From: Promethearchaeota archaeon
GTDB taxonomy: Archaea > Asgardarchaeota > Lokiarchaeia > Sigyniarchaeales > SOKP01
Direction of reading: 5' to 3'
DNA: 64,000 nucleotides
Assembly: GCA_019058425.1 (NCBI GenBank)
Contig: JAHPYZ010000003.1
Span: 44,573-108,572 of the forward strand
Within the stretch, counting starts at the first letter, position 1. Each line of letters begins with the position of its first letter. The notes under the pieces were generated by a model. It was not told where the DNA came from and searched no databases. It saw only the letters and a program-made list of their open reading frames with translations. Positions 7,082 through 47,249 of the stretch are shown piece after piece. Made by a program: the position numbers and the translations under genes.

Positions 7082-8578
7082 CTAAGTCATATGAATTGTT
7101 AATAATGGATCCCCAAAAAATTTCATGCCATATACTTCTTCCCAATGATTAAGAGGGATGATTTCAGGACCATGAAACCAGTCTTTAAATGCTTCTCCAA
7201 AAATCTTTCCATCTCGTAGTGAATCATAGAATGGCTGATAAAGGCTCATTCCTCCTGATCTCGAACACCCTATTACCCCTAATGATTGACCATCAAATAA
7301 GTAATGAGTAGCAATATTATTTCGTATCATCAGATTTGCTGAAAAACAAGAATACAAATTAAAGAATAATGGTTGAGGTCCATTGTTATAAATATCGTTG
7401 TAAGTCAGAATTCCATCATCAGCATTATAAAAAGGATGTTGAAGGGCATTGATGCCAAATTGTTGTTCAGTACCATTACAATGAGCCATTACATGCACTA
7501 ATTCATAGTTTGTAAAAGCAGGATGAGTGATATCCGATATATTAGAAAGAAAATAAGTTGCATTTGTAAAATCATTAGCAAAGTAGTTATAATCTGCCTC
7601 ACATGTAAGATTTGCTCCTGTATAAGTAGTAAAATTACTTACCCATTCAGATTTATAAGCTGCCCATTCATCATCAATATACAATAAACCTTGATGAGGT
7701 CGATATGTAAGCCCAATTCTTAATTGGTGATCTCGATAAAAAAAGTTACTTAAGGAAGTTAATGGGTTGAAACCCACCTTACTTATAGTATATGGACTTA
7801 TTCGTGCAACCCAAATCTCTGGAAGCGCGTCAGCTGTACCATTATTATGTTCTAAATGATTATCTAAAGCACCGACATCAAAAAAGCCATTTGAATTGGC
7901 ATCTGTCCAATTTCCATCCAAATCCATAAGATAATAATCACAGGAAAACTGTCGAAATATCATCCATGAAGAGTCCCAATATTGCGCTTTTGCATAAGGA
8001 AGTTTGCCAATTAAAACTGCCCCAATTGTGCCGTTTGAATAGTATGGTGTTATATGATTCTTAAGTTGGGTTACATTATTATTAGACCAATTAAATATAT
8101 TTACAGTGTATCCTTGAGTAATGATATCTTGTTTATATTGTGTAATATCGGAAGATAAACTATTATAGAGTGATGAGTTGATATAAATCAAAACATTTCC
8201 AAGGAATATTGGTGTAATTCCAACAATAATTGTAATAGGATTAGAGTGTGATGACTCTCCAAAATCATTTAGGGCAGTAACTGTGATTTGATACGTACCA
8301 TTCACTCCAAATATTATTTCTTCCTGATTATTGTAAGAACTTGCATTAAACACACTGTTTACATAAATGCTATAGTTATCTGCTTCAGTAACACTAGTCC
8401 ATTGAATGGTTAATCTATCTGTTGTTATAGTTTGATTTAGAGTTGTTATAGTTGGAGGGTTTGGGGGTTGATTACCTGTACCTCTTCCTCCAAAATTTAT
8501 TAATGTAAAAGGGATAGTCACTCCAATGAATATAACAGAAAGTACAATGACTATTAGAATTTTATTAATTTTCTTCAT
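7082..8578 (-). CDS. Secreted/anchored C25 (gingipain)-like protein with Fn3-like N-terminus
   Basis: N-terminal hydrophobic signal/anchor; Fn3-like segment; IWVARISP; candidate His (VMAHCNG) and Cys (NLYSCFSANL) of a caspase-like fold. Confidence 0.65.
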   Translation of the reverse strand: MKKINKILIVIVLSVIFIGVTIPFTLINFGGRGTGNQPPNPPTITTLNQTITTDRLTIQWTSVTEADNYSIYVNSVFNASSYNNQEEIIFGVNGTYQITVTALNDFGESSHSNPITIIVGITPIFLGNVLIYINSSLYNSLSSDITQYKQDIITQGYTVNIFNWSNNNVTQLKNHITPYYSNGTIGAVLIGKLPYAKAQYWDSSWMIFRQFSCDYYLMDLDGNWTDANSNGFFDVGALDNHLEHNNGTADALPEIWVARISPYTISKVGFNPLTSLSNFFYRDHQLRIGLTYRPHQGLLYIDDEWAAYKSEWVSNFTTYTGANLTCEADYNYFANDFTNATYFLSNISDITHPAFTNYELVHVMAHCNGTEQQFGINALQHPFYNADDGILTYNDIYNNGPQPLFFNLYSCFSANLMIRNNIATHYLFDGQSLGVIGCSRSGGMSLYQPFYDSLRDGKIFGEAFKDWFHGPEIIPLNHWEEVYGMKFFGDPLLTIHMT

Positions 8579-43730: not shown

Positions 43731-43954
43731 TTTAATTCACTCTCACCAGAAGAAGAGTGAAGCAGACTGCCCTACTTCATAATCTTCACATTGAACTGGT
43801 TTTAAATCTGACATAAAATAAATTAATGAAGATTTAGATAAAATTTTAACTATTAATTTTAAAGGTGGAGCAGTAGTCAAGTGAACATGTTCAACAATAT
43901 ATTTAAATTATAATGACTGCTTTTAAATTCGATCGATTTGAGTACACATATTAG

Positions 43955-45868
43955 GTGATTATTATAGAAAATGAAAGAATTTCTTATCATAAATCTGTTC
44001 AAAAAGTTTATGAGAGAATTAAAAAAGATGGTATGACTAATATTTGGGATCGCTTTGAAGCTCAGGGGTTTGGAGGTGATCCTGATAAAAGATGTCCATT
44101 TTGTTTAAAAGGTGCACGTTGTGATTTATGTTCTAATGGTCCTTGTAGAGCTGATTCATCAATAGACAAACGTGGTGTATGTGGAATGACTGCGGACGGA
44201 ATGGCAATGCGAATGATGCTTCTTAGGAATGTTATGGGTACGTCCACTTATCATTATCATACTGAAACAACATTGAAAACCTTAAAGGCTACGGTAGAAG
44301 GTAAAACTCCATTTAAAATTTCTGAACCCGAGAAACTAAAAATTTTTGCTGAGCGTCTTGGTTTAGATGCATCTGGTTCAGAAAAAGATATTGCACTGAG
44401 ATTATATTATTTTGTAAAGGAAGATTTTAATATACCTTATAATGAACAAAGTAAAATAGTTGAGAAATTGGCACCATCCGAAAGACAAGAAGTTTGGAAA
44501 AAATTAGGAATTTTTCCAGGTGGACTATATGGTGAAATGATGTTTTCTACTAGTTCTTGCCTAACAAATGTAGATGGCTATTATGCAAGTTTAGCACTTA
44601 AAGCAATGAGACTTGGGATTGCCATGGCATATCAAAGCCAAATTGTAAATGAATTCACTCAGGATATTTTATTTAATATTCCCAGACCACATAAAATGAG
44701 AGTCAATCTAGGAGTCTTAGACCCAGATTATGTAAATATCCTTCCAAATGGGCACGAACCATTTCTAGGATTTGCAATGGTCCAACTTGCACGAAAAGCT
44801 GAATGGCAAGAAAAGGCGAAAGCAGTTGGTGCAGAAGGATTGAGAGTTATAGCAAATATTGAGACTGGACAAGAAATGATACAAAGATGGGAAATGGACG
44901 ATGTTTTTTATGGGTTTACAGGAAATTGGATTATGCAAGAAGCAATCTTGGCAACTGGTTGCATTGATGCTTTTATCTGTGATATGAATTGTTGTATGCC
45001 AATTGACCCTATATATGCTGAAAAATATAAATTCAGGTTAATTCCGGTATCAGAAGTTGTGGTTTTTGAGGGGGTAACTGAACGGGTGGATTATAAGCCT
45101 GAAAAAGCTGAAGTACAAGCAGCGACATTAATTCAAATGGCTATTGATAATTTCAAGGAACGGAGAGCGAGCGTAGAACCTATTATGGGTTTGGACATGA
45201 ATGAAGCGGTAGTTGGATTTTCGAGTGAAAGTATTCTTGGTGCTCTTGGAGGGACACTAGATCCATTACTAGATGTAATTAAAAATGGTACTATTCGAGG
45301 AATTGCTGGATTAATATCTTGTACTACACTTAGAGATTATGGACAAGATGTGCATACAATTCAAGTGGCTAAAGAATTAATTAAAAGAGATATTTTAGTA
45401 TTATCAATGGGGTGTGGTAACGGTGCATTACAAGTTGGAGGATTATGTTTACCAGAAGCAAAAGATATGGCTGGTCCGGGTTTAAAAGCGGTTTGTGAAA
45501 AACTGGGAATCCCTCCAGTTCTTAGCTATGGAACATGTACTGACACAGGTAGAGTTGCTGATTTGATTGGAACTATCTCTGTTGCATTAGGTGGTGTACC
45601 AATTCCAGATTTACCAATAGTAGCCGCAGCTCCAGAATATATGGAACAAAAGGCCACAATTGATGCAATATTTGGTTTAGCTTTTGGTCTATATACCTAT
45701 GTCAATCCAGTACCAACAGTCACTGGTGGTGCGGATTTGATTAAACTCTTGACCGAAGATTGTAAAGATTTAACAGGTGGAATATTGCATGTAGAAACTG
45801 ATCCAATTCAAGCTGTTGATGCAATGTTAGTCCATATTGAGAAGAATAGGGAAAAATTAGGCATCTAA
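43955..45868 (+). CDS. cooS: Ni-dependent CO dehydrogenase catalytic subunit (CooS type)
   Basis: RCPFCLKGARCDLCSNGPCR N-terminal clusters; SMGCGNGA, SYGTCTDTGR and APEYMEQKA motifs. Confidence 0.92.
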   Translation: MIIIENERISYHKSVQKVYERIKKDGMTNIWDRFEAQGFGGDPDKRCPFCLKGARCDLCSNGPCRADSSIDKRGVCGMTADGMAMRMMLLRNVMGTSTYHYHTETTLKTLKATVEGKTPFKISEPEKLKIFAERLGLDASGSEKDIALRLYYFVKEDFNIPYNEQSKIVEKLAPSERQEVWKKLGIFPGGLYGEMMFSTSSCLTNVDGYYASLALKAMRLGIAMAYQSQIVNEFTQDILFNIPRPHKMRVNLGVLDPDYVNILPNGHEPFLGFAMVQLARKAEWQEKAKAVGAEGLRVIANIETGQEMIQRWEMDDVFYGFTGNWIMQEAILATGCIDAFICDMNCCMPIDPIYAEKYKFRLIPVSEVVVFEGVTERVDYKPEKAEVQAATLIQMAIDNFKERRASVEPIMGLDMNEAVVGFSSESILGALGGTLDPLLDVIKNGTIRGIAGLISCTTLRDYGQDVHTIQVAKELIKRDILVLSMGCGNGALQVGGLCLPEAKDMAGPGLKAVCEKLGIPPVLSYGTCTDTGRVADLIGTISVALGGVPIPDLPIVAAAPEYMEQKATIDAIFGLAFGLYTYVNPVPTVTGGADLIKLLTEDCKDLTGGILHVETDPIQAVDAMLVHIEKNREKLGI

Positions 45869-46251: not shown

Positions 46252-46434
46252 AATTTAATAGAAATAAGAGTTGATTGTTAATAAGATTTAATTTCTATTT
46301 GTACAATGAGTACTTTGGCTGTGTAGTAGAATTAATTTTTTATTTTAAAGTATACTTTTCGTGATTCTATCTCGTAATTCTATTAGAACATGTTCGAAAT
46401 TAAAAATATATAATCACTTCCATTTGATTAAATC

Positions 46435-47249
46435 ATGACTGAAACAAAACAATATAAAACAGTAAAAAGAAAAATTATTAAGATTGATGAAGATCTTTGT
46501 ACAGGATGCGGTAATTGCGTAGTCGACTGTGCAGTAATATAAAGAATGATTTATATAGCATAAAGGGCGCGCTCGCAGTTGTCGACGGAAAAGCTAAGGT
46601 TATAAATGAAGTTTTCTGCGATGGTCTCGGTGCGTGTATTTCTGGTTGCCCTGAGGGTGCACTTGAAATAATCGAAAGAGAAGCACTAGAGTTTGATGAA
46701 GAAGCTGTTGAGAAACATTTAGAGTCTATTAAAGATAATGAATATACTGAGGCTGAACAAATAAAACAAATTGTTACAGAACATACTCATCAATGCGGTT
46801 GTCCTTCTGCTCAAACAATGGTTTTTGAAAAAACTGAAGTACAAACAGAAGTAGCTGGAAAGATTCCTTCTGCTCTACAACAATGGCCAGTTCAAATGCA
46901 TTTAATTAATCCTCGAGCTCCATACTATCAAGGCGCAGATGTTTTACTTGCAGCTGATTGTGTTGGATTTTCCTATGGTGATTTTCATAGAGATTTCTTA
47001 AAACAAAAATCAATCGCTATTGCTTGTCCAAAACTCGATCAAGGCAAAGAAGTTTACATAGAAAAAATTAAAACTTTAATTGATGATGCAAAAATAAATA
47101 CACTTACAGTTACCATTATGGAAGTTCCTTGTTGTTCTGGTTTATTAGCTTTAGCCCAAGAAGGAGCTAAACGAGCAAGCAGAAAAGTTCCAATAAAAAA
47201 TGTAGTCGTGGGCATACAAGGAAATATTATAAAAGAAGAATGGGTATAA
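46435..47249 (+). pseudogene. Ferredoxin-type 4Fe-4S protein, reading frame interrupted by a 29-nt insertion at 535-563 of the 46 kb block (46535..46563)
   Basis: 5' ORF 46435..46542 (MTETKQYKTVKRKIIKIDEDLCTGCGNCVVDCAVI*) and 3' ORF (KGALAVVDGKAKVINEVFCDGLGACISGCPEGALEI...). Deleting 46535-46563 joins GCA GAG GGC GCG CTC = AEGAL. Confidence 0.7.
46535..46563 (+). other. 29-nt stem-loop insertion in ferredoxin gene
   Basis: taATATAAAgaatgaTTTATATagcataa: perfect 7-bp arms; length not divisible by 3; carries in-frame stop. Confidence 0.65.

Follow-up and report, generated by a model that had tools for sequence, protein, structure and literature searches.

A predicted 29-nt bulge-helix-bulge intron in a ferredoxin-type gene of Lokiarchaeia and related inserts in thioredoxin genes

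The DNA analyzed here (the window) is a 64,000-nucleotide (nt) stretch of a Lokiarchaeal genome (Promethearchaeota archaeon, hereafter the study species). It holds a ferredoxin-type gene at 46435–47249 whose reading frame is broken by a 29-nt insert at 46535–46563. This insert is very probably an archaeal pre-mRNA intron of the bulge-helix-bulge (BHB) type, removed by a mechanism like that of crenarchaeal cbf5 introns and located in a metabolic gene of an Asgard archaeon. The prediction draws on comparative evidence, namely the exact position of the insert, its conservation in five species, covariation in its helices, constraint on the protein, and the presence of genes for the required enzymes. 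In the transcript, the flanking exons would pair with each other, GUGC of exon 1 would pair with GCAU of the intron, and the intron would close its own 7-bp hairpin, so that the fold would present two 3-nt bulges. A two-subunit tRNA-splicing endonuclease would cut each bulge behind its second base, and RtcB would ligate the exons to give a 261-amino-acid ferredoxin-type protein. Cutting by the endonuclease and joining by RtcB in the cell are proposed from the anatomy of the locus.

The Ferredoxin-Type Gene and its Frame Break

Exon 1 (46435–46534, plus strand), which is kept in relatives, begins with the ATG at 46435 and ends one base into a Glu codon. Without splicing, its frame reads ...NCVVDCAVI and meets a stop within the insert (TAATATAAAGAATGATTTATATAGCATAA; 46535–46563, plus strand). 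Exon 2 (46564–47249, plus strand) is open as far as the stop at 47249, and deletion of the insert gives a product of 261 amino acids ending there. The gene has a 4Fe-4S dicluster domain, and the insert immediately follows the Cys that closes the first cluster motif. The codon restored by deletion specifies Glu, which is present in 31 of 31 aligned homologues. An earlier note, made from the sequence of the window, had described the insert with these coordinates and frames, a motif regained by its exact removal and an intact downstream frame, and in all these points its description holds.

The gene interrupted by the insert is single-copy in the genome at E≤1e-20. The earlier note had also proposed a genome-wide search for the 29-mer; it occurs once in the 4.64-Mb assembly, even with up to three mismatches allowed, and once in the window, where none is expected by chance. 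The draft genome consists of 143 contigs and contains scaffold gaps; the surveys of it for split genes, palindromes, and transfer RNA (tRNA) genes cover 757 kb. When these 757 kb were compared with 1.2 Mb of the relative G039 (about 295 genes), the ferredoxin-type gene was the sole genuine split gene, and frame breaks are thus exceptional in this assembly. An apparent 16-nt split on contig 101 (L281, about 7110–7120) was rejected, as a 10-N scaffold gap in the coding region mimics an insert there.

Conservation of the Insert in Lokiarchaeal Species

Further inserts were sought by a protein search in 81 genomes of the order, by a pattern search, and with a covariance model in 231 genomes of the phylum. 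A 29-nt insert is found at the identical base in four further species, of which G030 and G035 belong to the same genus as the study species and G058 and G026 to two others, giving five species in three genera. The alignment of close homologues, which the earlier note had recommended, shows no insert at this site in any of the 27 other relatives aligned. Excision at the predicted BHB cuts yields a Glu codon in all five species, GAG in the study species and GAA in G030, G035, G058, and G026. The loop of the insert differs among species, whereas its arms and its GCAUA end are preserved. Between the study species and G030, exon 2 has a dN of 0.07 and a dS of 0.77, and its dN/dS is well below 1 among the intron-bearing species. 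Judged by dN/dS values well below 1 outside the flanks, the exons are under purifying selection. On these comparisons the insert is a conserved element, neither an assembly error nor a fresh pseudogene.

The search for additional copies of the hairpin revealed no second gene with the ferredoxin-type intron, and no match was found in the viral contigs searched. Weak covariance-model matches were obtained in G108 and G205. Hairpin matches located between genes in G031 and in G035, and within a UGA-containing gene of G049 and relatives, are unrelated. The latter gene is MvhD-like and in G049 and G057 (L040, L041) carries in-frame UGA codons (CLK*GYSAADLAG and VVG*RPNEC) that are candidates for selenocysteine; its matched stretch recurs in G063 and G067 (L043, L044).

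Bulge-Helix-Bulge Structure at the Exon Borders

The RNA of 46510–46583 can fold as a BHB, made of an exon–exon clamp, a 3′ bulge AAA, a 4-bp central helix, a 5′ bulge AGU, and an inner helix, with all strands on the plus strand of the window. The clamp of about 10 bp is formed by GGUAAUUGCG of exon 1 (46510–46519) and CGCAGUUGUC of exon 2 (46574–46583), whose pairs are kept in most cells across the five species, and is extended by AGU/GCU, CG/CG, and CU/GG. The central helix pairs GUGC of exon 1 (46529–46532), just before the cut, with GCAU of the intron (46558–46561). The inner helix is formed by AUAUAAA (46537–46543) and UUUAUAU (46550–46556), the 7-bp arms already recognized in the earlier note. 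That note had found no canonical BHB at the joints and had pointed to the palindrome GUCGAC shared by the exons; a BHB does exist there, formed by GUGC/GCAU flanked by two 3-nt bulges, and the palindrome is not its key element, the exons pairing through GGUAAUUGCG/CGCAGUUGUC instead.

The 5′ bulge AG^U occupies 46533–46535 and the 3′ bulge AA^A 46562–46564, and cuts after the second base of each produce exactly the 46534/46535 and 46563/46564 junctions. Among same-length offsets within 4 nt only the actual one pairs, and the same offset yields the invariant Glu. The GUGC/GCAU helix with its AGU and AAA bulges is the same in all five species. The inner helix of G026 has two fully compensatory double changes, U-A to C-G and A-U to G-C. 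Across the five sequences 97.9% of cells pair, vs. 29–51% when the strands are slid. The BHB is at most 0.8 kcal above the minimum energy in the study species, G030, and G035, and in G026 it is contained in the minimum-energy fold.

Short Inserts in Thioredoxin Genes

A covariance-model match in G021 proved to be the first thioredoxin intron and led to a wider set, which was collected by a search with the joined G021 protein and by reading the broken cases. It comprises nine inserts, all short and structured, which lie at three sites of the thioredoxin gene; eight other genomes of Lokiarchaeia carry them (L184–L188, L190–L192). Site A, at the K codon of WCGPCK, is occupied in G021, G020, and G023; site B, before WCGPC, in G032, G045, G041, G027, and G023; and a third site, further downstream, in G031. 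All nine match the cut geometry of the ferredoxin insert, five of them with a weaker, 3-bp central helix, and their removal gives gapless proteins in all cases, including G023, which carries two inserts in one gene. The minimum-energy fold of the site A introns contains the BHB. Double changes between exon and intron are found at site A (CAUG/CAUG to CUUG/CAAG) and site B (CUG/CAG to CCG/CGG), and they support the exon–intron pairing.

The UGA found in site B inserts was not accepted as a selenocysteine codon, because the G023 insert at this site is 32 nt long and shifts the frame. As a separate observation, a thioredoxin-like gene of G068 (L189) has WCQPYK instead of WCGPCK, along with one in-frame UAG.

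Strength of the Structural Evidence

Several observations weigh against a BHB intron or weaken the case for it. The shuffle control on the five ferredoxin sequences is modest, the observed score being reached in 22 of 500 shuffles. The BHB of G058 is 2.6 kcal above the minimum, and the energy gap between the BHB and alternative folds is generally small. Overall, the fold is not unusually stable for its composition (z −0.65), so the case stands on position and comparison rather than on energy. An extra A·A mismatch is present between the inner and central helices, beside the 5′ bulge, which makes the motif slightly relaxed. The central 4-bp helix is invariant in the ferredoxin set, hence its covariation support comes only from the thioredoxin introns, and at site B of these the central helix has 3 bp and a mismatch and faces a competing exon–exon fold.

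At a given pair of cuts, the four central pairs arise in 2.5% of random trials and the inner three pairs in 6.3%. At the thioredoxin sites the protein would be identical or similar with a few neighboring joints too, so the chance per site is several times higher there. When the window was scanned ab initio for BHB motifs joining two open frames, hundreds of chance hits resulted, hence such a scan is unable to find introns without homologues.

Splicing Enzymes and tRNA Introns

All six genomes searched encode two endonuclease-family proteins and one RtcB each. The nearest match of the catalytic endonuclease subunit is 3p1z_B, a chain of an archaeal tRNA-splicing endonuclease that we take to be the Aeropyrum enzyme, and the aligned His is kept. 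The motif N-K-P-R of this subunit aligns with E-K-P-R of 3p1z_B, by counting K44-P45-R46. In the Aeropyrum enzyme, the same three residues have been assigned to the crenarchaeal loop (PMC12397907). The second subunit is without the aligned His and is a structural subunit. This gene content suggests that the Lokiarchaeal endonuclease is of the (alpha-beta)2 type, with its assembly and specificity being predictions. Endonucleases of this type have been described as capable of cutting relaxed motifs (PMC6379350).

Two of the three tRNA genes found in the surveyed part of the genome carry predicted introns, tRNA-Asp (L233, 15621–15755) one of 40 nt and tRNA-Thr (L274, 8196–8299) one of 29 nt at an unusual position.

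Alternative Explanations

Besides an unusually short spliced intron, which is the option that has gained, the earlier note had listed translational bypass, a mobile-element footprint, fresh pseudogenization, and an assembly error; these are now disfavored. In programmed bypass, translation would take off at the AUA before UAA, skip 23 nt with the aid of the hairpin, and land at the AUA of 46560–46562. Known bypass elements, such as those of T4 gene 60 and the byp elements of Magnusiomyces mitochondria, are likewise short inserts with a stop codon, a hairpin, and matching flanking codons. Take-off and landing codons are both AUA in four of the five species (the study species, G030, G035, and G058), with the stop beside the take-off codon and the hairpin in the gap. 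However, G026 has ACA before the stop and AUA at the landing site, because the compensatory change in the helix altered the codon, and the match is lost. The bypass product would read CAVIKGAL or CAVIQGAL, two residues longer than the spliced one and without the Glu of all 31 homologues. Bypass accounts neither for the exon–intron pairing, nor for the exon–exon clamp, nor for the thioredoxin inserts elsewhere, and it is regarded as very improbable. A pseudogene or the footprint of a mobile element, from which no product would be restored, is equally improbable. Such an event would explain why a stop and a frame shift burden the only copy of the gene, but not why separate lineages have the insert at the same base together with intact downstream frames and low dN/dS, nor why the promoter palindrome GAACATGTTC is kept, nor why the loop varies but both arms and the terminal GCAUA are preserved. 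A footprint is also at odds with the lack of a second genomic copy of the insert.

The 5′ open reading frame (ORF) and a re-initiated 3′ ORF could instead encode two separate, unjoined proteins, as both are open and a TTG is available upstream in the exon 2 frame. There is no in-frame ATG near the start of exon 2, though, and the position of the insert directly after the first cluster motif means that the split would halve the ferredoxin domain. The predicted cuts restore the motif exactly, and two proteins would leave the exon–intron helices unexplained. This possibility is fainter than either of the preceding ones. That a single metagenome-assembled genome was misassembled or misread here, for which the draft state with its contigs and scaffold gaps might be cited, has a negligible probability, as the genomes of four other species share the insert, with substitutions, and no other true split was seen among the genes compared. 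The group I and II introns known from archaea are catalytic RNAs whose lengths far exceed 29 nt; nowhere in the window does an Rfam family match at its threshold, and the insert shows no group I or II catalytic core of a known family.

Distribution and Lateral Entry

The intron-bearing positions are scattered in both the gene tree and the marker tree. The sister species of G035 is G031, to which it is 96% identical across 889 marker residues, and of the two only G035 has the intron. Their ferredoxin genes are 92–98% identical at nt 1–60 and from about nt 391, and 38–82% identical between these points, where G035 is 72–93% identical to the study species, G030, and G042. This switch in identity indicates replacement of a tract of roughly 330 bp including the intron, and on this evidence the intron is judged to have entered G035 laterally with that tract. 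G058 and the study species share a shorter block, similar in extent to the clamp, for which structural constraint instead of transfer may be the cause.

A broader proposal, held with a little more belief than doubt, is that tiny BHB introns are scattered and actively spreading among ordinary protein genes of Lokiarchaeia, in some cases with two in a gene; they would move by interspecies homologous recombination and constitute an mRNA splicing system of their own, independent of the spliceosome.

Relation to Known Introns

Crenarchaeal cbf5 genes have BHB pre-mRNA introns of 16–44 nt that are cut between the second and third bulge bases (Watanabe, 2002; Yokobori, 2009, PMC2738675). The ferredoxin intron resembles them in its short length (29 nt), the BHB at its borders, the predicted place of cutting, phase 1, a size too small for a homing endonuclease, a two-subunit host endonuclease, and a patchy occurrence among relatives. 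In contrast to cbf5, the host is an Asgard archaeon, the genes have redox functions (ferredoxin, thioredoxin) rather than a function in RNA modification, several genes and sites are involved, the exon–exon clamp is long, and lateral entry is indicated in one species. Splicing is moreover a prediction here. Archaeal tRNA introns share the motif and are presumably processed by the same endonuclease and ligase; here, however, the host is an mRNA, and the exons provide a clamp of their own instead of the tRNA fold that aids recognition.

A 2020 study on substrates of the splicing endonuclease names crenarchaeal cbf5 mRNA as the sole further BHB intron then reported from archaea (PMC7714728). The literature covered, in which subscription papers and preprints are thinly represented so that an unseen report is possible, has BHB introns in archaeal protein genes only for cbf5 and none for Asgard archaea. 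If correct, the broader proposal of spreading BHB introns would place an mRNA splicing system separate from the spliceosome in close archaeal relatives of eukaryotes. Introns in Asgard protein genes would inform ideas on what mRNA splicing was like around the time when eukaryotes arose. Gene-calling programs would split or shorten Asgard genes that contain such introns. For work on intron gain and spread, the set offers closely related species that differ in having the intron, together with one clear recombinant.

The Neighboring cooS Gene and a Shared Palindrome

Upstream of the ferredoxin-type gene lies cooS (43955–45868, plus strand; TIGR01702, E=1.7e-219), encoding the catalytic subunit of anaerobic CO dehydrogenase. 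It is a probable partner gene and has the same upstream position in seven relatives as well. The palindrome GAACATGTTC (46386–46395), a candidate operator, lies just 5′ of a TATA-like box of the ferredoxin-type gene, and each of the 24 Lokiarchaeal homologues inspected has it 49 bp 5′ of the start codon. The 757 kb contain just two copies, the second being at 43883–43892, before cooS. The palindrome is a candidate for the operator of a small CO-dehydrogenase regulon, and gene neighborhood together with the shared palindrome indicates that the 261-amino-acid ferredoxin-type protein probably works with CO dehydrogenase.
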